The notes beneath the pieces were generated by a model. The model searched no databases. It worked only from the letters and a program-made list of their open reading frames with translations, and was not told the DNA's origin. A program made the translations under genes and the position numbers. From Gammaproteobacteria bacterium (GTDB taxonomy: Bacteria; Pseudomonadota; Gammaproteobacteria; Pseudomonadales; Pseudohongiellaceae), in NCBI GenBank assembly GCA_026710425.1, contig JAPORB010000209.1, positions 1 through 34,616 on the forward strand: 34,616 nt of DNA, given 5' to 3'. This document shows, in pieces, positions 2,671 through 34,457 of this stretch (position 1 is its first letter; every line of letters starts with the position of its first letter).

Positions 2671-3341
2671 GCTTTCAACTCCTGAACTTTAAATAAAGGT
2701 ACATTTATCACACCATCTCTCATCTGCGCCCGGAAGTAGTGAGGGGTAATGCCGTTTTTGAAGTCAAAATCGTGCAGTATCCAGCCCAGATCTTTTTGAC
2801 CAACCAGATCGGGATGAACTGTCGGCCTCACACCCTCTTCCACAAATTCAAAACTCGCTGCAAATTCCCTGTTTCCCAAACATGGGGTATGAAAGCACTG
2901 ACCCCTGCGTGCTCTTCGGACAAAGATGTCCCTATGTTTTCGTTCATTGTCATCCGGCCCTGCATTTTCCGTCAGCTCGAAATGTGCTTCAATGATATAG
3001 GCCACGTTCCGTAATAGCGTGGTTGCCCGTTGCTGCCGATTGTCTCCGTCATCAACATAATATCTAAGTGCCATCTCTGAGCCGCTCATTGCTGCTTTCA
3101 CCTTATTATCCGAGATTTTGTCCTTGACTTCATTGCGCCTAAGGGTTTCAAACCTGATAGGATTGAGCACGGTGATCTTGTCTATATGCCAGCGAATCGC
3201 TGGTTTCCAGTGAATGGCCTCAACAATGCCCCTAGCTGCAGAAGGTGTGATGACATCATAGCTGACGCGCTCTACCTTCATTTCGGGCCGAGTGAAACAG
3301 GCTCTTTCTCCCCAAACTTTTAGCTTTACTCCATAACTCAC
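2667..3341 (-). CDS. cas5c: Type I-C CRISPR-associated protein Cas5c/Cas5d
   Basis: 224 aa; MSYGVKLKVWGERACFTRPEMKVERVSYDVITPSAARGIVEAIHWKPAIRWHIDKI is characteristic of Cas5d; overlaps the cas8c start. Confidence 0.93.
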   Translation of the reverse strand: MSYGVKLKVWGERACFTRPEMKVERVSYDVITPSAARGIVEAIHWKPAIRWHIDKITVLNPIRFETLRRNEVKDKISDNKVKAAMSGSEMALRYYVDDGDNRQQRATTLLRNVAYIIEAHFELTENAGPDDNERKHRDIFVRRARRGQCFHTPCLGNREFAASFEFVEEGVRPTVHPDLVGQKDLGWILHDFDFKNGITPHYFRAQMRDGVINVPLFKVQELKA

Positions 3342-3371
3342 GGTAATGCCTCTGTCTCTTTATTGCAAAAC

Positions 3372-5627
3372 TTAATAAACTGATCTCTCTGCTGCAATAT
3401 ATGCAGGGTTTTCCCAGCTCAGACCACAGTCTTCATCATACAGGTTTGTAGATACAAGTTCCAAGAACTGCTCACCGAACTTTTCTTCATTTACAGGCTG
3501 AACTGCACCAGCAGCACGCAATGCTTGTAACCCATATGCAGGGACCTGCACCAGATAAGGCTGTAGCTTCCTTGCAATTCCGCCAACTCGATCCAGTTGC
3601 TTAATTGTATTCAAAAGCTTAGTCACATCGCTTCGGGAAGACTGTTCATGTAGCGAAGAGTAGGTAACGATAATCGGTTGCATATTGCTCTCGATCATAC
3701 GGAATTTGCGCGCCATCTGTTCGAAGGGTAAAGCATCAGGATCCTGGTTTACATCTAGGAGCCTGTGCGCATCCAGTTCGCAGCCTTTAATCCAATACAC
3801 TTCCTTAAAATAATTCTGAATGGCCTCGGGTGATAGAGTTATACTTGAGTGCTGCCTTAAAATCATGCGGCTAGCTTGAGCGTACTGCTCTAGTTCCGGT
3901 GGCATAGACCAATCGCCTCTTACTGAAAACACAGACACGATACTTTCGTTTTTGGATTGCTTGCCTTCACGATTGCAACGCCCGGCAGCTTGGGCGATGG
4001 AGTCCATGCCAGCATCCGCACGAAAAACTGTAGGGAAATCAACATCTACGCCCGCTTCTATCAATGAGGTTGAAATGACCCGGCATGATCTTCCAGATCT
4101 CAGTGCCTTTCGAATACACTCCAGTTTGTCGCTGCGGTGTCTTGCACACATCAATGTGGTCAGGTGGTAGCTGCCTTCCATATGGCGGATCCTTTTAAAC
4201 ACAAATTGAGCATGACGGCGGTTGTTCAGGATACACAACACTTGTTGCTGATTTATCAACCGCTCAATCAGCTGTTCATCATCCAGTTCGCCGATATGTT
4301 CTATACGCACCCGCTCTAGCTCCCTGTGAAGGGATTTCGGATCAGGTGCCAGCTCCCTCACGTTTTCCAGTCCATTCTTAAAACCATCCTTGGCTAGCAA
4401 CGCTGGTTGTGTTGCTGTGCATAATACCAAGCTGGTGCGGTAATTCCTTGCCAGCTCGGCAATAGCGGCTACACAGGGGCACAACAATTTATATGGAAGT
4501 GTCTGCGCTTCATCCAGAATAACAACGCTATTGGAAATGTTATGCAGTTTTCGACATTGCGAAGGGCGATTCGCAAAAAGACTTTCGAAGAACTGTACCG
4601 CGGTGGTGACAATGATGGGAGCATCCCAATTTTCGCTAGCAAGTCGCAACTTATCCTTGGAGTCTGGATCTACCAAAGCATACCTATGCTCATTGAATGC
4701 ACTGTGATGCTCCAGCACCGCTGCATCACCGAGCAATCCAAATGCCTTACGAAGCTCTCCGGCGTTCTGCTCAACAATACTGGTGAAGGGAATAACAAAG
4801 ATAATACGGTGCAAGCCATGTTGAATGGCATGATCAAGGCCAAACGCTAGTGACGACAGAGTTTTTCCGCCACCTGTCGGTACATTCAACGTGAATAGTC
4901 CCGGTGCCAATGCAGCCTGTTGACGGACATGGGTGAGGATTCTGAAGCGAACAGGGTTTATTCCATTTGGTGACTGAAATCTGGGTTTTTGTAAATAATC
5001 AGTCAACGCTTGTTGCAGTGCCCACAAAGATGGAAAACTTCGATCTCTTGGTGCCTTTCCCTCAATCCGCCGAAAGAAGGCATCCGTGTCAAGAAAGTCG
5101 GCATCGACAAGGCATGAGTATAGCATTCTTGTCAGAAACGCTATCTGAAATCCTGACAATTTTGGATCTGTGTCCAGTTTAGGTACGGACGGGCACGGAT
5201 TCAGGTTAATCTCTTTTTCCCAGCATGTATCCAGTTGCGTTTCCACTGGATGGCGCAATCGTGTTTCCAGTGGAGTAATGGATTGCCGCTCAAGTTCCTT
5301 ACCATCTGCTAATCCGGCATGATGCCCAGCAATCGCATATGCCAGTAATTTTCCAACTTGAGGGTAACGCAAGGCAACAATCTGGGCACCCCAAGTAGCA
5401 TGATCAACCCGCCTTACGCTGCCTCTCAAACGAGCCTGGAATTCCGGGCAATACTTTCCAACATCACGCAATATACCTGCCAATTCGGCTAAATCCCCAC
5501 AACCAAATCCTTCTGCGAAATTTTTCGCCAAGCTTCCTACTTGTTTCAAATGATCCTGAAGGGTTTGCCACTCCGTTTCTGGAAATTCACTCGACGAATG
5601 AGCATAGAAAGTAGTTCCTTTATACAT
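3372..5627 (-). CDS. cas3: Type I-C CRISPR-associated helicase/nuclease Cas3 (HD + SF2 helicase); HD motif altered (see findings)
   Basis: 751 aa; Walker A NVPTGGGKTLSSL, DEAQ box VVILDEAQTLP, motif III CTATQP, motif VI QAAGRCNREGK; N-terminal HD-like region reading LAGILRDVGKYCPEFQ and AGHHAGL. Confidence 0.93.
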   Translation of the reverse strand: MYKGTTFYAHSSSEFPETEWQTLQDHLKQVGSLAKNFAEGFGCGDLAELAGILRDVGKYCPEFQARLRGSVRRVDHATWGAQIVALRYPQVGKLLAYAIAGHHAGLADGKELERQSITPLETRLRHPVETQLDTCWEKEINLNPCPSVPKLDTDPKLSGFQIAFLTRMLYSCLVDADFLDTDAFFRRIEGKAPRDRSFPSLWALQQALTDYLQKPRFQSPNGINPVRFRILTHVRQQAALAPGLFTLNVPTGGGKTLSSLAFGLDHAIQHGLHRIIFVIPFTSIVEQNAGELRKAFGLLGDAAVLEHHSAFNEHRYALVDPDSKDKLRLASENWDAPIIVTTAVQFFESLFANRPSQCRKLHNISNSVVILDEAQTLPYKLLCPCVAAIAELARNYRTSLVLCTATQPALLAKDGFKNGLENVRELAPDPKSLHRELERVRIEHIGELDDEQLIERLINQQQVLCILNNRRHAQFVFKRIRHMEGSYHLTTLMCARHRSDKLECIRKALRSGRSCRVISTSLIEAGVDVDFPTVFRADAGMDSIAQAAGRCNREGKQSKNESIVSVFSVRGDWSMPPELEQYAQASRMILRQHSSITLSPEAIQNYFKEVYWIKGCELDAHRLLDVNQDPDALPFEQMARKFRMIESNMQPIIVTYSSLHEQSSRSDVTKLLNTIKQLDRVGGIARKLQPYLVQVPAYGLQALRAAGAVQPVNEEKFGEQFLELVSTNLYDEDCGLSWENPAYIAAERSVY

Positions 5628-5680
5628 ACAAAAATACCTTTTCTAACTTCAAGGGTTTTTGTCAAAACATATCATATTAT

Positions 5681-5695
5681 TCTAGCCTTGCTAGA
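5681..5695. repeat. Short inverted repeat upstream of cas3 (TCTAGC-CTT-GCTAGA)
   Basis: Perfect 6-bp arms with a 3-nt loop between tRNA-Ser and the cas3 start. Confidence 0.5.
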
Positions 5696-5811
5696 GCCTA
5701 GCTTCTGGATAATCTGTTAGAAGATATTGGATAAAAAGCCATAAAATATACGGCTCGTTAATTGCATTGACTGAATTTTTAGGGTCTTTCGAACGGTCCC
5801 GAATGCTGAAA

Positions 5812-5899
5812 TGGCGGTGAGGGAGGGATTCGAACCCTCGATACGTTCCCGCATACACACTTTCCAGGCGTGCTCCTTCGACCACTCGGACACCTCACC
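5812..5899 (-). tRNA. tRNA-Ser (anticodon GGA)
   Basis: Reverse complement GGTGAGGTGTCCGAGTGGTCGAAGGAGCACGCCTGGAAAGTGTGTATGCGGGAACGTATCGAGGGTTCGAATCCCTCCCTCACCGCCA: acceptor pairs, anticodon loop CTGGAAA, long variable arm, GGTTCGAATCC T arm, encoded CCA. Confidence 0.97.
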
Positions 5900-6020
5900 A
5901 TCAAAATTCAACCAGAATAATATCTACATCTCCTACATCTAGAATTTCACGCTCTATTGAACAGAACATAGTATAATTCAGCCTTAAGAAATTTACAAAG
6001 TAGACAATCGCTCCCATTCG

Positions 6021-6839
6021 TTATTGCCGGGAGATACGAGATAGGATTTGTTGATAGCTAATGGGCGCAGAACTACGATATACATTGATATCAAGACCAC
6101 CCCGGCGTAAATAATTCATGCATAAAATCAGCTTTTGGGGCTTACAGTAAAGCATCAGATCCCGGTAGATGCGCTCAGCACATTCTTCATGGTACCCCTG
6201 GTGCTGCCGATATGAGCAGAGATATTTAATCAATCCATGTTGATCTATTTTTAGCCCGCTGTAACTAATCAGTACTCGGGCCCAATCGGGGGCACCAGTG
6301 ACGGGACAATTGGACCTGAACAGCTGACTGCTGAGTTCCTCCTCTACCACCGTCTTGTCACTGGTGGCCAGAAAATCACCACAAGGAAGATAATGACTAA
6401 CCTCCACCTGATGATTGTCAATACTCCTTCCTCTACTACAGCTTAATTCACAGAACTGTTTGTCTTCGACATCAAATATGTGGACTTTAACCTGTGACTT
6501 GCTGATCGCTGATAGGTCCCTACCAAGCATGGATGCCAGTTGATTTTTTCCCTCAAGTCTCTCTTGGTTAAGCGAATTCAGATACAGCTTGAGTGACTTT
6601 GACTCAACGATGTATTCTGAGTCTGCATCGAAAAAAAATTCAGCCACTGCCACCTCTGGTTTGCCCTGGGAATTAAGCCAGGATAGCTCAAAGGCATGCC
6701 AGTGGTCAAAGCCATACATAGGCAGGTTATTGTCGATACCAAGTGTCTGGCGTGCACTTGAACGGGCAATGGGGTAGAGAATTCCCGGATCATAGTGTTC
6801 CGGTGCTGCAATAGTTTCGCCTAAAGGATTACCAGTCAT
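6021..6839 (-). CDS. queF: NADPH-dependent 7-cyano-7-deazaguanine reductase QueF
   Basis: 272 aa; PLGETIAAPEHYDPGILYPIAR, YDFHWHAFELSWLN-type segment (GFDHWHAFELSWLNSQGKPEVAV), ESKSLKLYLNSLN, catalytic-Cys segment SNCPVTGAPDWA. Confidence 0.95.
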   Translation of the reverse strand: MTGNPLGETIAAPEHYDPGILYPIARSSARQTLGIDNNLPMYGFDHWHAFELSWLNSQGKPEVAVAEFFFDADSEYIVESKSLKLYLNSLNQERLEGKNQLASMLGRDLSAISKSQVKVHIFDVEDKQFCELSCSRGRSIDNHQVEVSHYLPCGDFLATSDKTVVEEELSSQLFRSNCPVTGAPDWARVLISYSGLKIDQHGLIKYLCSYRQHQGYHEECAERIYRDLMLYCKPQKLILCMNYLRRGGLDINVYRSSAPISYQQILSRISRQ

Positions 6840-6849
6840 TTTTATGCTG

Positions 6850-7623
6850 CTACTGGCGAATTCCTGTACCGTGACGCAATAACCAAATGCAGCCGCTGTA
6901 AAGGACGACGCTAAACAGCCCGAGGATCAGGAAGGCCCACACAATATCAACATCCGAGCTACCAAGAAAACCATAGCGAAACGTATTGACCATGTAGAAG
7001 ATGGGATTAAGAGCCGATACCGCCTGCCAGAACGGAGATAACAATTCAACTGAGTAAAACACCCCTCCGAGATAGATCAGCGGTGCCAACACGAAAGTGG
7101 GAATGATCGAAATGTCATCGAAACTGTTGGCAAAGACTGCATTAACAAAACCTGCCAATGAAAAAACAATTGAAGTCAATAATATTACCGAGACAGTCAC
7201 CAATGGGTAAGCAATCCGCAGGTCCGCAAACATCAAGGATAGTGAAGTAACAATAACTCCAACAGCCAAACCCCTTGCCATGCCTCCTACCACAAATCCG
7301 GATAGGATGACGTAGTTTGGTACGGGTGAGACCAGCAACTCCTCAACACTGCGCTGAAACTTTTGACTGAAAAAACTGGACACCACATTGGAATAAGAAT
7401 TCTGAATCACCGACATCATGATCAGTCCAGGAACAATAAATTCCATGTATTGAAAACCTGCCATCTCGCCTATGCGGCGACCGACCAGATTACCAAAGAT
7501 GACAAAATATAGGACAATGGTGATGGCGGGTGGAACTAGGGTTTGCAACCATATTCTGGCAAACCTCCTGATTTCCTTGACCACAATAGTCTCGAATGCA
7601 ATCAGTTTGTGGTTACCGTACAT
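6850..7623 (-). CDS. ABC-2 type exporter permease (YadH-like)
   Basis: 257 aa; multiple hydrophobic segments, PPAITIVLYFVIFGNLVG and PLIYLGGVFYSVELLSPFWQ typical of ABC-2 permeases; next to an ATPase gene. Confidence 0.92.
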   Translation of the reverse strand: MYGNHKLIAFETIVVKEIRRFARIWLQTLVPPAITIVLYFVIFGNLVGRRIGEMAGFQYMEFIVPGLIMMSVIQNSYSNVVSSFFSQKFQRSVEELLVSPVPNYVILSGFVVGGMARGLAVGVIVTSLSLMFADLRIAYPLVTVSVILLTSIVFSLAGFVNAVFANSFDDISIIPTFVLAPLIYLGGVFYSVELLSPFWQAVSALNPIFYMVNTFRYGFLGSSDVDIVWAFLILGLFSVVLYSGCIWLLRHGTGIRQ

Positions 7624-7720
7624 ATTTCTCCCTAACGGATTTGATTTTTTTCATTACTTTCTGTGATCTGCAAACAATTTCAGAAATCGGTTGAGTCTTA
7701 TTTTCGGAACCGACAGTTCA

Positions 7721-8653
7721 TCATGCCTCTATAACATTTCTTTGCAGGCGAGAGAGAAACAACTGCTCAAGGCGATTACTTTTATTGCGCATACTACTAA
7801 TATTGATCCCCTTGGCATTAATTTCAGCAAACACTGCGTTTAAGGAAATGCCGGCGGGCACAGAAATTTCGATGCTATGTTCGTCGACAACATTGGCATA
7901 GACTCCTTCCAGTGAAAAATCAATTGGACCGCTCATAGCGTCCCTCGAATCAAGCACGAAGACTTGTGAGTCAAGGGCAGCAAGTAAGTGCTTCATGCTG
8001 GTGTTTTCCACAATCTCACCATTATCGATGATGGCAATATTACGACACAGTTGTTCGGCTTCTTCCAAGTAATGGGTAGTTAGGATGATGGTGGTGCCAT
8101 TTGCATTAATCTCAGTAAGGAAATCCCACATGGATTTTCGCAATTCGATGTCCACCCCTGCGGTTGGTTCATCAAGAATCAACAGGCGGGGTTCATGCAC
8201 CAGGGCTCTGGCTATCATCAAGCGGCGTTTCATGCCGCCAGACAAAGTGCGAGAGCGATCGTTGCGTTTTTCCCACAATCCAAGTTGCCTGAGATATTTC
8301 TCTGTGCGCTCTTTGGCCAATTTTCTATTCAAGCCATAATAACCGGCCTGAGTTATAACCACATTGCCCACTCTCTCGAAAAGACTGAAATTCACCTCTT
8401 GAGGCACGATGCCCAGATCCAGTTTAGTTTCGTAGACATGAGTATCCACATTGCGTCCAAAAACCTCCACGAACCCACCGGTGCGATTAATCAGCGTTGA
8501 TATCACGCCGATGGTGGTCGATTTTCCTGCTCCGTTTGGACCTAGCAAGGCAAAAAAATCTCCCTGTCTCACCTCTAGGGATATACCTTTTAGTGCTTCA
8601 AACCCATTGGCATAGGTTTTCTGCAGATTTTTTATGGAAATGGCTATCGACAT
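7721..8653 (-). CDS. ABC transporter ATP-binding protein (YadG-like)
   Basis: Walker A GPNGAGKST, signature LSGGMKRRL, Walker B LLILDEPTAGVD, H-loop TTHYLEEAE. ORF track starts at 8677; MSIAISIKNLQKTYANG at 8653 is the likelier start. Confidence 0.93.
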   Translation of the reverse strand: MSIAISIKNLQKTYANGFEALKGISLEVRQGDFFALLGPNGAGKSTTIGVISTLINRTGGFVEVFGRNVDTHVYETKLDLGIVPQEVNFSLFERVGNVVITQAGYYGLNRKLAKERTEKYLRQLGLWEKRNDRSRTLSGGMKRRLMIARALVHEPRLLILDEPTAGVDIELRKSMWDFLTEINANGTTIILTTHYLEEAEQLCRNIAIIDNGEIVENTSMKHLLAALDSQVFVLDSRDAMSGPIDFSLEGVYANVVDEHSIEISVPAGISLNAVFAEINAKGINISSMRNKSNRLEQLFLSRLQRNVIEA

Positions 8654-8769
8654 GGTGAACCCGCACTCAATCTGCAACAGTGCCTTGCTGAGACTGTTTT
8701 GCGGGACAAGCTGGGGCTAGGAAATGACACTTTGCAGAATATGCAGGAAGCATGGCTTGCATTTTGCTC

Positions 8770-8797
8770 AAAAAAAAGCCCAGCTTTTGCCGGGCTC
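8770..8797 (-). terminator. Rho-independent terminator after tRNA-Glu
   Basis: Minus strand AGCCCGGC-AAAA-GCTGGGCT followed by TTTTTT. Confidence 0.8.
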
Positions 8798-8802
8798 TAT
8801 GT

Positions 8803-8878
<76 letters not shown>

Positions 8879-9400
8879 AGTTGAATTGTCTCGCAGAACT
8901 CACCACATAAAAGACCATCATAAACAGCATGTCTGATTAAGTCAAGGGGTTTTCCAATGGAGAAATTGTGCGACAAGGTTCTGAGGAATTTTAGAGAATA
9001 AAAATTTTTATATTATTGATATTTATAGCATTTAATAATCAACTTTAGAATAAATCCTTTGGTCTGATCGTACCACACTGTTACCTATCCAATTTATTTT
9101 TATGCTTTGTATATGGGTTTTCTGTTCCATACCCTGCTCTGGTCAGGCAAGATCAACGAGAATACCCGTCCGTAACAAGTAATGATCTACGGACCCTTTA
9201 TCAAGGTACTGGAGGGGGTCAATTGAGTCTGACAATTCAGGAAAATTCCGGATGGCCATTCTTCAGAGCCTTTTCCTGATTCTCTTTATTCAGCCCGTTG
9301 GTCGTCTCTTGAAGGATAATGCGACTAGCCGCACCATTGACCATGAACAGAAAATTGAGGAAAAATTTACTTTTTGGCAGATATGAAGTAGACTTTAGAT

Positions 9401-10621
9401 ATGCCAAGTCATTGGATTAAAAGAACTTTTGAGCCAATCTTCAGTAAGCCAGCCAAACATTTGCGCTTGTTTCCTGTATGGTTACTACTCGGTCCAAGGC
9501 AGTCGGGCAAAAGCTCGCTCCTGCACCGTTGCAGCACTGGTCACACACATGTAGATCTTGATGACCTGAGTATCAGGGAGCGCGCAAACCGGGATCCGTT
9601 GCTGTTTATGAGAAATTTAACGCCACCATTCACTATCGACGAGATTCAGTATGCACCGCATCTGCTGAGCCCAATAAAGCAGCTTGTGGACTCGGGAAGC
9701 CTCACACCTGGTGCCATACGGTTAACGGGATAGCAAAATTTCCGGGTGATGCAGGGGGTAAGCGAGAAACTCGCAGGTCGGATCGCTATTCTGAATCTGC
9801 TTGGACTCTCATTTGCAGAAAAAGGTTGGGCGCACACAGCTTCGCCACAAAAGTACTTCGAGTGTTTGCTGGAAACAGGATTTCCAAAACTGCATGGCGT
9901 GAGGGATCAAGCGACTCGGGATTTGTATTTGTCGTCATATCTCCAAACCTATATCGAACGCGATATCCGAGAGCTTTCCAGAATCGGGAAACGCAGAGAA
10001 TTTGAGATTTTCGTCAAGGTTTGCGCGCTTCGAACTGGGCAGATAATTAACCTTTCTGATCTTGGGCGCGATGCGGGGGTGTCCTCCGCAACAGTGCGGG
10101 ACTGGCTGAGTCTGCTTGAAGACGGGTTCCTGATCAAATTGGTGCACCCCTACTACAGCAACCGTACCAGAAGAATGATCAAAAGCCCTAAACTCTATTT
10201 TCTTGATGCTGGTCTTGCCGCGTGGCTTGGCGGGTGGCGTAGTATCGATGAGACCCGACTTGGGCCAATGGGTGGTTTCATTTTCGAGACTCAAATTTTG
10301 TCTGAGATTGTGAAAAGCTTACGCCACAGAGCACTTGAAATGAGCGTATATTTCTGGCGCACAAGGGATGGTCAGGAGATTGATTTTCTTGTCGAATTCG
10401 ATGGTCGAGTGTTCCCGATTGAGGTCAAGATGGGCTCGCCACACACTTCAACATTACCAAGCCTTGAAAAGATTGCGGAGCGGAATTGGGAACGAGGACA
10501 AGTGGTTTCGCTGACCGCTGAAACATCACCAGTGGACCTGACCCATGAATGGGAACTCTGTGCGCCTCATCAGCTGAATTTCATGTTAAAACCACAGAAT
10601 TCTGATCTTTTGATTAGTTAA
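9401..10621 (+). pseudogene. AAA ATPase with C-terminal DUF4143 domain, interrupted by one in-frame TAG
   Basis: ORFs 9401-9733 (GPRQSGKSSLL Walker A) and 9746-10621 (DUF4143-like; WRTRDGQEIDFLVEFDGRVFPIEVKMG) are in the same frame, separated only by TAG 9731-9733: ...RLTG*QNFRVMQGVSEKLAGR.... Confidence 0.85.
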
Positions 10622-11052
10622 TGAGTGAAAGTTAAAATTTCTCCCAATCCAGAAATCAGACTAAAACCAAGACATTAATGGGATTTTGTAGCTCGGGATT
10701 CATGCAGCTGATTGGCATGGAGCGGGCTCGGACTATCCTCAGGGTCTTATTTCTTCTGGAGAATGGACAGGAATAGTCGGACCCGGGTGACTGCCAGGAT
10801 TCTGTAAGTGGAATGGCTGACAATTGCCTTTCCTCCTGACCCAAACGCTCACCTTAATCCAGCAGCAAGACCTTGAGCTTCTCCTTAAACTCATGATCAT
10901 CTCAGCCAACAAAACATTTTCCCCGATCACTCCCAAGTCTATTTAGATACTGTTCTTAAGCTAAATTGGATGGTTATACATTAACAATTTTGTCGGGGTT
11001 CCCGTATGGAGATAGGAGCTAGCAGACACAGTTTTATACTTTTCTTGCTTAT

Positions 11053-11430
11053 TTATAAGCTTTGAGGCGTTGATAACGGTAGAAAATCGGGTTGCCCCGC
11101 TACTCCGTACAGACTCCGGATGTGTGCGATACGCGCCCGCTTGCCAAGTGAGGTGAAGATACTCTACATTCCCTGGCCAACGTCTTCGCACACGGCCAGT
11201 GCATCTTCGACGTTCACATACAGATATCGGTACTCATAACTGGCATTGAGCAGGTCTGCCGGTGCCAAAAGCACCGAGGTCTTGCAGGTTTACCGCGGCG
11301 CATGCTGCACAAAGTATTTCTATTTCCGAATCAGATTCAGGAAATTATCTACATCCACCATCCGATCCAGTGGCGGAATGCAGTAATGTTTCTCAACCTT
11401 TACAGATCCTGCTGTGTTAAAAAAGCACAT
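11053..11430 (-). pseudogene. Decayed ATP-binding protein (AAA ATPase) N-terminal remnant with three in-frame stops
   Basis: Single frame reads MCFFNTAGSVKVEKHYCIPPLDRMVDVDNFLNLIRK*KYFVQHAPR*TCKTSVLLAPADLLNASYEYRYLYVNVEDALAVCEDVGQGM*SIF...; resembles the family pattern FNTAGPV..HYxxPPLxR..KYFVLHAPRQTGKTSAL. Stops at 11322-11320, 11292-11290, 11166-11164. Confidence 0.8.
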
Positions 11431-11593
11431 GGTATAAATATATCCTGAATTGTCCGATGAAGCATTTTTTCTGCATATGGTGAGAGACATCACCAATGCT
11501 CAAAGTGCTATTGAACCAATCTAGCGTCTTTGAATCGAAATGTCATAGCCACGCCCTTCCTTCATAACTTTCGCTATACAGGAATCAAAATAT

Positions 11594-12439
11594 TTACATA
11601 TTGTCATTTGAAAGACTTGGTACTTCGTCGATGACAAAGATGTCTTCCGCATAAGTCTCGCCAATTTCAAAGTCTGTCCAGATTGCCTCATTCGCCATAA
11701 TGCCATTATAGAACAAGCGCACCCGGCCAGCCTGTTGCCAACTGCTCCCCGGCTTCGAAAAATAATCAGAATACCTTCGCTCATGCCAGCCGCGCGGTGT
11801 ATCAAACCCAACATAGAGAATTTGCAGCGAGTCTTGTTCAAATCCGAACAGAGTCTCACCGCCATCAGGATCACTCAGTTCAATCATAAAGGCAGGTTTG
11901 CCATCAATGGTGCGGTTTGCTCTTCTCATCTGCGTCCAGCCTTCATCCAATGCATTGCGGATAGCACCATATCCAAAATTGTTGCTCCACATGGCATTGG
12001 CAGACTGATTTTCCATACGACCATTCATATCGTAAGTCACCTGTCCATCATAGCTGATCAGCATAGCCAACTCCTGCCCTTGCCAGGCTTCAATACGCAC
12101 TTTGCCAGTAGCGGTATGGGCATCACTTTTCTCATCCGTAAAAACCCGCCACATGGCGTATTTGTCCCAGATGCTGATGCCACCATCCTGGCCATAAATT
12201 GTATTATGACCCGACAAGAACAGGGTTCCGGGATTGACAAAGATCTCACCGCCCGCCGCTGCATGCGCCATCTCAATAATCTGGCGGCCAGTCAGATCAG
12301 ACCGATACTGCATCGCATTTTCTGATTGTATTGTGGATTCCGCATCAGCAGGTATTTCACCTTGAGTAACGTTTTCCTCAAGGTCTTGGCACGCAGTAAT
12401 GAACATCGAACATGAAAAACATAGCACCTGAAGTTTCAT
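11594..12439 (-). CDS. Putative lipoprotein of unknown function
   Basis: 281 aa with N-terminal hydrophobic signal and lipobox-like FITAC; long ORF with coherent composition (DGKPAFMIELSDPDGGETLFGFEQDSLQILYVGF). Confidence 0.75.
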   Translation of the reverse strand: MKLQVLCFSCSMFITACQDLEENVTQGEIPADAESTIQSENAMQYRSDLTGRQIIEMAHAAAGGEIFVNPGTLFLSGHNTIYGQDGGISIWDKYAMWRVFTDEKSDAHTATGKVRIEAWQGQELAMLISYDGQVTYDMNGRMENQSANAMWSNNFGYGAIRNALDEGWTQMRRANRTIDGKPAFMIELSDPDGGETLFGFEQDSLQILYVGFDTPRGWHERRYSDYFSKPGSSWQQAGRVRLFYNGIMANEAIWTDFEIGETYAEDIFVIDEVPSLSNDNM

Positions 12440-30389: not shown

Positions 30390-33300
30390 GTGACTATTGT
30401 TCGAACTTTTCAGGGTACTTTATTTGCAGAAGAATTCCTATTTGAGTTCATCCGTGATATGCCAGAGTGGGGCAATATTGGTGATGCCGAGCTTGACAAA
30501 GTAGAGAATAATTTACGCAATCTCTTTACCAAATTTCCAGCCAAAGCATCACCAAATGAAAGCCAAACCGAAAATGACCTAATTTGGCCAGTACTACGAA
30601 TTCTTGGATGGAAAGCAAGTCTACGCCAGCAAAATCTCTCTCTACGCGGTCGTGAAGATGTACCGGATGGCTTGTTGTTCAAGGATAATGTCACTAAAGA
30701 TCTTGCTAATACCTTCCATGAGGAATGGAAACGATACAGAATTGGTTCAGCAATTGTGGAGTGTAAGCGATGGGCGCGGCCACTTGATCGCCGTTCTGGA
30801 CGCAGTGGAGAAGAAACCGCACCATCAACCCAAATGCTTCGTTATCTGAGGCATGTAGATGACCTGAGTGAAGGTGGAGTTCGATGGGGGATCCTGACCA
30901 ATGGACAGTGCTGGCGACTTTATTGGCAAGGTGCACATTCAGTCTCAGATCAGTTCTTTGAAGTTGATCTTGCAACCATGCTTGCTTTACCGGAATATCA
31001 AGAAAACCAGCAAGCACTAAATCTTGATGCACGTCGCCATCTGCTGAAGGTTTTTTTCATTATATTCCGACCCGGTGCTTTTTTGCCTGATCCAATCGAC
31101 GGTCGGACGCTGCATCAGCGGGCAGTTGATGAAAGCAGGTACCATCAACAACATGTATCAAGCAGCCTATCCGAATTAGTATTCGGTCAAGTCTTTCCGA
31201 ACTTAGCCTACGCTATATCAGAAGCCTCCCCAGCTGCAACATGCAGCGAAGTTCGCAAAGCCACTTTAATCTTACTCTATCGATTGCTGTTCATTTTTTT
31301 TGCGGAAGATCGTGACTTACTACCTGTTCGCGATACTCGATATGGTCAGTATGGACTACGTGAGAAAGTTCGAATTGATGTAGGCCATCGTAAGGATAAG
31401 GGTGATGTATTCTCTTCCAGAGCGTCACGGTATTGGTCCGTATTCGACGATCTATGTCGCACTATTGATATAGGAGATCGTTCAATTGGCCTCCCACCAT
31501 ATAATGGAGGGCTATTCGACAGAACGCAAACACCACTTTTGTCCCAAATACGCCTTGCTGACTCAGTGATGGCAAGTATGATTGATGCGCTCGGATTTGA
31601 ACAGTTACCGAATGGTCGACGCTATATCAACTATCGTGACCTTGGTGTACAACAATTCGGTTCAATCTATGAACGGTTACTAGAACAGGAAATAGTTAAG
31701 AATGGTAATCAGTTAATATTGCGACCCAATGTATTTGCAAGAAAGAACTCTGGCAGCTACTACACACCTGATGATCTAGTTGGATTGATTGTACGGGAGA
31801 CTATTAATCCACTGATTCAGTCTTGTCTGGATTTATTTCAAACAGAAGCAGAGAATTTAGTCAAAAGCCATCTACCAGAAGATATACGGATTGGACAGTT
31901 AAAAATCCATGACCCAGCCGAGCGTATTTTAGAACTCAGGGTCTGCGACCCCGCCATGGGGTCAGGGCATTTTCTGGTGTACTTGGTGGATTATCTTACT
32001 GATCGGATCATAACAGCAATGGCTGAATCAGAGGATATCTGGGAAGGATATCTATCACCACTGAGTGAACGGGTTGACAAAATTCGAAATAAAATCATCA
32101 ACAATGCAAAAAAACAGGACTGGTTAGTCGATCCATCACAATTAGATGACCGACACATAATTCGACGGATGGTTCTCAAACGCTGCGTGTATGGTGTAGA
32201 CAAGAATCCAATGGCTGTAGAACTCGCCAAGGTATCACTTTGGCTACATACCTTTACTGTTGGAGCACCACTCAGTTTTATTGATCACCATCTACGCTGT
32301 GGTGATAGCTTGTTTGGTACATGGGTGAGAGTTGCCCTGGATGAGTCAGAGCGAAAAGGTGGCAGACTGCTTGTGACAGATTCCGTAAAGCGTGCAGTGC
32401 GTGCAGCCACACCCATGCAGATTCTTGAAAAGCTAACTGATGCAGAAATTGCAGAGGCATATCGTTCCTCAGATATTTTTGATGAAGTCTCGATAATGAC
32501 AGCACCACTTGATGCCCTGATGTCATTGCTTTTTGCGTTCGAGTGGTTGGATTTGCGTAATGCACAAGATAAGGCAGCGGTGCAGGAATGGTTAATGGGA
32601 ACTTACGGAGATCCTGTCACTATTGCACTAGCCACGACCGAGATTAGAGGAGAGTCAAAGACTTCACATCGGTTCCGCCAGCTTTTGGAAAAAGCAAGAC
32701 AGCTCATTGTCGAAGAGAGATTCCTAAACTGGCAGGTCATGTTTCCTGGAGTATGGGATAACTGGGAAGATTCCGAATTACAAGGTGGTTTCGATGCCGT
32801 AATTGGGAATCCACCTTGGGACTGCATGAAACTGCAACAAGTAGAGTGGTTTGAATTCCGCCGACCTGAAATCGCACAGATGACAAGGGCCTCTGATAGA
32901 ACAAAGCTGATTAAGAAATTGGAACAATCCAATGATCCACTGGCCGAGGAGTTTGCACTTGCTAGCGTTAGAGCAACATCCTCTATGCGGATGATACAAA
33001 CTAGAGGTGATTATCCACTCCTTTCTCATGGTGATGTCAACCTCTATGCATTATTCGTAGAGAGAGCCATAACTCTGGTCAAAGCAGATGGAATGATAGG
33101 ATTACTAACTCCGATAGGAATAGGAACCGATAAATCAGCAGCACCATTATTTGCGAAATTGATGAAAAAAAGGCAACTTAAGTGCTTCTGTGCTTTCGAA
33201 AATCGAAGAGGTTGGCTTTTCCCTGGAATTCACCACGAAGAGCAACCAACTGCTATTGTCTTCAGTCATAGTCAAGGGCAGTTCAATAGCTACAAATACT

Positions 33301-34457
33301 GTGCTCGAATCAGTGACTGGTTGCAATTTCAGGATTCAGAACGTTGCTTCCATGTTGATTCTACCGATGCTATGCGTATCAACCCCAATACTGGCACAGC
33401 TCCCCTCTTTCGTAATAGGCGCGATGCTAATTTGATTACCGCTATTTACGAACGACTACCTGTTCTTGTTGACAGGTCTACTGATGAGGTGATCAAGGCA
33501 TGGGCCGTAAAATATATGACTATGTTCCACATGACTAATGATTCAAAACTTTTTCGTACCCGCATGGAGCTGGAAGAAACTGAAGGAGCTTGGCCCACTG
33601 GCAAAAATCGTTTTGATAGCCCAAGCGGAAAATGGGTGCCTTTATATGAAGGTAAGTCTATTCAACTCTTCAACCACCGTTATGCTAGTGTGAAAACTAA
33701 TCCCAAAAATATCAGTAGTCAAGGCAACACAGAAGTTCTAACGTTTAAGCAGCTCAGCGATATCAATTTAACACCGGAACCACGATACTGGGTTAATAAG
33801 AATAACATGCCATGCCTGAGTGTTGATTGGGGTATTGGTTTCAATAGCATCTGTAATATCAATAATGCTCGTAGCCTCATCACATCTATTGTTCCCTTAT
33901 CCGCTTGTGCTAATAGCCTCCCTATTTTTTTACCGGAAAATAGCTCCCAACAGCAACCAATCGAACTTCTTGCCGCTAATCTTGGTTCAATTATTTGCGA
34001 TTATGTTGCACGTCTAAAAATACAATCCAGAAATTTGAATAAATATATCATAGAACAATTACCAGTTATTCCTGTGGATGCTTATCATAAAACTCACTTT
34101 GGTTCTATATCAGCCGGGGAATTACTCCGCCAAATCATTCTGGAACTTACTTATACAGCAACTGATATTGCCGCCTTTGCCCGAAGTATGGGCTATGTCA
34201 GCAATAAAGATGAAGTTCTACCACCATTTAAATGGGACGAAAAGCGGCGCCTTTTGCTTCGATCAAAATTGGATGCCATCTACTTCCACCTCTATGGCAT
34301 CACTAAACGAGATGATATACGTTATGTTTATTCAACTTTTCCTGTTATTGAACGACAAGAGATCAAGCTGATTGGCAGCTTCCGATCTCGAGATCTCTGC
34401 CTTGCATGGTTCAACGCTTTGTCAGCGGGTGAGCCGGATGCAACCATTACAATATAA
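30390..34457 (+). CDS. Eco57I/type IIG-like restriction-modification enzyme (fused nuclease-methyltransferase)
   Basis: 1355 aa; N-terminal PD-(D/E)XK-like DVPDGLLF...SAIVECKRW, NSGSYYTPDDLVGLIV, motif I LRVCDPAMGSGHFLVYLVDYL, motif IV AVIGNPPWDCMK, C-terminal LDAIYFHLYGITKRDDIRYVYSTFPVI. Confidence 0.9.
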   Translation: MTIVRTFQGTLFAEEFLFEFIRDMPEWGNIGDAELDKVENNLRNLFTKFPAKASPNESQTENDLIWPVLRILGWKASLRQQNLSLRGREDVPDGLLFKDNVTKDLANTFHEEWKRYRIGSAIVECKRWARPLDRRSGRSGEETAPSTQMLRYLRHVDDLSEGGVRWGILTNGQCWRLYWQGAHSVSDQFFEVDLATMLALPEYQENQQALNLDARRHLLKVFFIIFRPGAFLPDPIDGRTLHQRAVDESRYHQQHVSSSLSELVFGQVFPNLAYAISEASPAATCSEVRKATLILLYRLLFIFFAEDRDLLPVRDTRYGQYGLREKVRIDVGHRKDKGDVFSSRASRYWSVFDDLCRTIDIGDRSIGLPPYNGGLFDRTQTPLLSQIRLADSVMASMIDALGFEQLPNGRRYINYRDLGVQQFGSIYERLLEQEIVKNGNQLILRPNVFARKNSGSYYTPDDLVGLIVRETINPLIQSCLDLFQTEAENLVKSHLPEDIRIGQLKIHDPAERILELRVCDPAMGSGHFLVYLVDYLTDRIITAMAESEDIWEGYLSPLSERVDKIRNKIINNAKKQDWLVDPSQLDDRHIIRRMVLKRCVYGVDKNPMAVELAKVSLWLHTFTVGAPLSFIDHHLRCGDSLFGTWVRVALDESERKGGRLLVTDSVKRAVRAATPMQILEKLTDAEIAEAYRSSDIFDEVSIMTAPLDALMSLLFAFEWLDLRNAQDKAAVQEWLMGTYGDPVTIALATTEIRGESKTSHRFRQLLEKARQLIVEERFLNWQVMFPGVWDNWEDSELQGGFDAVIGNPPWDCMKLQQVEWFEFRRPEIAQMTRASDRTKLIKKLEQSNDPLAEEFALASVRATSSMRMIQTRGDYPLLSHGDVNLYALFVERAITLVKADGMIGLLTPIGIGTDKSAAPLFAKLMKKRQLKCFCAFENRRGWLFPGIHHEEQPTAIVFSHSQGQFNSYKYCARISDWLQFQDSERCFHVDSTDAMRINPNTGTAPLFRNRRDANLITAIYERLPVLVDRSTDEVIKAWAVKYMTMFHMTNDSKLFRTRMELEETEGAWPTGKNRFDSPSGKWVPLYEGKSIQLFNHRYASVKTNPKNISSQGNTEVLTFKQLSDINLTPEPRYWVNKNNMPCLSVDWGIGFNSICNINNARSLITSIVPLSACANSLPIFLPENSSQQQPIELLAANLGSIICDYVARLKIQSRNLNKYIIEQLPVIPVDAYHKTHFGSISAGELLRQIILELTYTATDIAAFARSMGYVSNKDEVLPPFKWDEKRRLLLRSKLDAIYFHLYGITKRDDIRYVYSTFPVIERQEIKLIGSFRSRDLCLAWFNALSAGEPDATITI

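Follow-up and report, generated by a model that had tools for sequence, protein, structure and literature searches.

A type I-C Cas3 with arginine in place of the HD-dyad histidine in an otherwise conserved effector operon

The type I-C Cas3 of Neisseria lactamica (NlaCas3) coordinates its metals through the residues H8, H25, H52, D53, H118 and H119 (PMC11417383). Cleavage is lost in the mutants H25A, H52A, D53A, H118A, H119A and S192A. On dsDNA the mutants D53A and H118A are only partially impaired, H52A is not named among these partial cases, and H52A abolishes the cleavage of both ssDNA and dsDNA (PMC11417383). In the HD domain of E. coli Cas3, H74A is the standard dead-nuclease mutant (PMC9427990). 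More generally, HD sites accept various metals and non-canonical ligands (PMC8177086). Gene repression by the I-C Cascade without Cas3 has been reported for P. aeruginosa and for a gonococcal system engineered for the purpose of study. Among the I-C systems of P. aeruginosa, some have a broken cas1 and arrays that are dissimilar (PMC7913775), and in S. epidermidis the loss of CRISPR through inactivating mutations of the locus was observed experimentally (PMC3784566). No direct precedent for a natural HD-dead Cas3 was found in the open-access literature searched, although this absence is not a proof.

The window analysed here, of 34,616 nucleotides, is an entire contig (C159) and starts within cas7. 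It contains cas3, cas5c, cas8c and cas7c in one operon and in that order, which corresponds to the type I-C effector module with a partial cas7 (Table 1). The window region 5628-6839 places the cas operon directly downstream of a tRNA-Ser gene that neighbours queF; an acquired operon could plausibly have inserted there.

Table 1. Features of the cas operon and its boundary (window coordinates).
Feature	Position	Strand	Basis and remarks
cas7c, first 269 residues	1..808	-	truncated at the contig start, about 20 residues short of the expected end
cas8c, 621 aa	805..2670	-	PADLOC; one conservative departure at conserved columns
cas5c, 224 aa	2667..3341	-	PADLOC; zero departures at conserved columns
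cas3, type I-C, 751 aa, intact frame	3372..5627	-	PADLOC Cas3c (E 3e-220), pairwise alignment, predicted structure
Arg54 codon CGT, replacing the HD-dyad histidine	5466..5468	-	translation and codon readout (5468-5466)
tRNA-Ser (GGA)	5812..5899	-	immediately precedes cas3 and bounds the cas operon

The Cas3 protein displays successively an HD domain (residues 1 to about 185), an SF2 helicase and a C-terminal domain. The helicase motifs GGGKT, DEAQ, TATQP and QAAGRCNREGK are all present, as listed in the initial annotation of this DNA. The predicted structure has a mean pLDDT of 88.9 (around 95 near residue 54), and its first structural matches are the solved I-C Cas3 structures 8zns and 8g9u. 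Around residue 54 the protein reads AGILRDVGKY, within the longer stretch DLAELAGILRDVGKYCPEFQARLRG (751-aa frame, minus strand). The presence of R-D instead of H-D, on which the initial annotation was founded, was confirmed both by translation and by codon readout. As judged from its sequence, the product is a Cas3 by descent with an incomplete nuclease signature. It is the only Cas3 of the assembly; the genome-wide search for Cas3-HD proteins gave one match (n=1) and no second one. A backup nuclease acting in trans was considered and rejected on the basis of this single match and single Cas3.

The N. lactamica enzyme is the best match of this Cas3 in both sequence and fold. In the pairwise alignments Arg54 pairs with the histidine of the motif LLHDLGK in 8zns and 8g9u, namely H52, one among the six metal-binding residues. 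The residues corresponding to the NlaCas3 ligands and to S192 are H10, H26, R54, D55, H102, H103 and S171. The protein thus retains five of the six metal ligands as well as the counterpart of S192, and the metal-binding set H..H..HD..H..HH is interrupted at the HD histidine while every other position is retained. Cas3 homologues were collected from a species-representative genome collection, from the genus, the order and the class, and from viral contigs. After removal of duplicates, we observe a histidine in the Arg54 column in 112 of the 112 readable I-C-like rows, which represent 111 genes (L004 and L008 are the same gene). No homologue collected carries an arginine at this position; within the genus a single further full-length I-C Cas3 was found, and it has the histidine. 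The residues H10, H26, D55, K58, H76, H102, H103 and S171 are invariant in the homologues and retained here, in agreement with the initial annotation, which had described the other histidines of the HD domain as intact. The homologues use the two histidine codons nearly equally (58 CAT and 57 CAC, counted before duplicate removal), and the proposed change from CAT to CGT is indeed a single transition. A chance alignment at this column was excluded. The different HD dyad that the initial annotation had allowed for does not exist in the protein; an alternative dyad nearby was rejected, the alignment being unambiguous.

The conservation of the whole protein was evaluated by a leave-one-out test, with the comparison restricted to sequences less than 60% identical. 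H54R is the sole departure of this Cas3 at 51 otherwise invariant columns. At least one invariant column is broken in 29 of 113 Cas3 proteins by the same test. One broken column is unremarkable in itself; it is remarkable that the broken one corresponds to a predicted metal ligand. When looser columns are included (97% conserved), the protein also departs at A263G and V467L, both conservative. The substitution, its column, the conservation of this column and the intactness of the remainder are established by the present analysis, and the Cas3 looks healthy apart from one apparently disabling change.

The collected viral sequences include an I-C-like Cas3 (L093/L094) that was considered as a case of convergence from H to R. 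This candidate was rejected: the protein sequence itself reads VSFASRGHDIGKYSP, with ASRGHDIGKY, which corresponds to an intact HD and a two-residue insertion. The viral contig L093 (IMG/VR 3300025669_002088) contains at positions 2748-12052 the genes cas3-cas5-cas8-cas7 of I-C type, directly followed by an array of 12 repeats. There is no cas4, cas1 or cas2 between cas7 and the array, and a TnpB/Cas12-like zinc-ribbon gene is found upstream. This organization recalls the I-C variant of huge phages (PMC7162821), with the difference that the Cas3 of L093 has an HD domain.

A nuclease-dead HD site is the best reading of Arg54, because the remaining HD residues and helicase motifs look normal, as do Cas5, Cas8c and the incomplete Cas7, and the model fits the solved I-C Cas3. 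The impairment of the nuclease, already put forward in the initial annotation, is well supported by homology, H52 being a metal ligand whose replacement in H52A kills the enzyme; the residue tested in NlaCas3 is alanine and not arginine. The protein resembles the laboratory dead Cas3 mutants (NlaCas3 H52A and E. coli H74A) in that the same histidine of the HD dyad is replaced and the helicase is untouched. It differs from them in that the change is natural and leads to arginine instead of alanine. We infer that arginine is as disabling as alanine. The opposite possibility, that Cas3 still cuts with Arg54 compensated by the other ligands or by the preferred metal, has a low probability. It is favoured by the intact residues H10, H26, D55, H76, H102 and H103, by the tolerance of HD sites for different metals and ligands mentioned above, and by the merely partial impairment of D53A and H118A on dsDNA. 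On the other hand, H52A is inactive on both substrates, and a bulky positively charged side chain at the metal site should be more harmful than alanine.

It is also unlikely that the arginine codon is a base error, with a true codon CAT or CAC and a normal Cas3. The assembly is a draft of 258 contigs, and another gene of the same contig is also broken: an in-frame TAG (9731-9733, LTG*QNFRVMQG) interrupts the AAA_14-DUF4143 ATPase gene (window 9401-10621, plus strand), as would be expected from natural decay or from a further base error. However, accessory ATPase genes decay naturally as well, the completeness of the assembly is 99.95% for a contamination of 0.06%, and errors are not dense, since the frames of Cas3, Cas5 and Cas8c are otherwise clean and the other conserved sites of the operon are kept.

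The initial annotation had proposed either a system that binds and unwinds its targets without degrading them, giving silencing, or a system freshly inactivated. The second part fits best, because a single radical change is accompanied by no decay elsewhere in the operon (Cas7c also has no departures at conserved columns, its cut end aside). The first is feasible and is left unsupported, no array, Cas1, Cas2 or Cas4 having been found in the assembly. A recent loss of function is most likely, rather than a new kind of machine. We consider it probable that the substitution H54R occurred naturally and recently, and suppressed interference while the rest of the system was kept. An A-to-G missense mutation on the coding strand (CAT to CGT) would have deprived the HD site of a metal-binding histidine; the site would no longer hold the metals properly, and DNA would no longer be cut. 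The binding by Cascade would persist, as would probably the ATP-driven helicase. Interference would have been lost recently, and the system would not yet have decayed further. This loss was most likely neutral or briefly useful, by the tolerance of a useful mobile element or by the escape from self-targeting. We infer both the recency of the change and the reason for its survival; the age and the direction of H54R are not datable, because the closest Cas3 found is only about 56% identical. Two sampled Cas3 genes, L072 and L003, are each interrupted internally by an in-frame stop codon (a TAG at residue 156 and a TGA at residue 469 of the read frame), and Cas3 inactivation is therefore recurrent and ordinary rather than rare.

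In a complete I-C locus cas4, cas1 and cas2 lie downstream of cas7. Cas1, Cas2 and Cas4 were not found in the assembly, where the contig ends inside cas7 and short contigs were apparently filtered. Three repeat-pattern searches modelled on the repeats of relatives (GTCGC...GGATTGAAAC-type) detected no CRISPR array in the assembly; a single near-match to the repeat pattern lies inside other sequence and was rejected as a repeat array. No contig of the assembly overlaps the contig end to provide the missing remainder of cas7. Relatives have about 20 more residues of cas7 beyond the point where the contig starts, and the array lies about 2.25 kb from there. None of 20 sampled contigs is shorter than 2026 bp, which suggests a length filter of about 2 kb. 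Such a filter could have discarded a short piece from further downstream, and these absences are thus no proof of loss. For this reason among others, we give little credit to the idea of a remnant locus dying as a whole, in which the adaptation genes and the array were deleted first, the selection on Cas3 was lost and H54R arose by drift. The absence of Cas1, Cas2, Cas4 and the array from the assembly would agree with it, as that point of cas7 is usually followed in I-C loci by about 2.25 kb and an array, and so would a contig end falling within cas7. Nevertheless, the other conserved sites of the operon are kept, which argues against a long drift.

The same absences bear on silencing. The remaining parts of the system could bind DNA without cutting it, as in I-C CRISPRi (Cascade without Cas3) and in type IV-A, a natural nuclease-independent precedent. 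All but the nuclease ligand looks conserved, and in I-C systems Cascade without Cas3 represses transcription. However, it is improbable that a nuclease-dead Cas3 was selected for in a DNA-binding device of gene silencing similar to type IV-A or to the laboratory I-C CRISPRi. No guide source is visible here and cas3 is retained, in contrast to these systems, and type IV-A uses CasDinG. Retaining Cas3 is unnecessary for silencing, and Arg54 was found in no relative. With the array, Cas1, Cas2 and Cas4 all undetected in the assembly, there is no sign of a guided complex. The chance is slimmer still that a nuclease-dead and helicase-competent Cas3 has been kept by selection for Cascade-directed binding or unwinding without degradation in a natural I-C system.

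Elsewhere in the window, at the right contig end, a gene (30390-34457, plus strand) encodes a protein of 1355 aa that weakly resembles BREX PglX and type II adenine methyltransferases. Its third-position GC (0.365) is below that of the other genes measured, and it is possibly an acquired defence gene.

If the base is real, this locus represents a clean natural case in which a single point change at a catalytic residue probably abolished interference in an operon otherwise kept. If sister strains had Arg54, the system would become a candidate for a natural nuclease-free type I targeting. Genome annotation would count such a state as an intact CRISPR effector, and the presence of cas3 should not be equated with active immunity.
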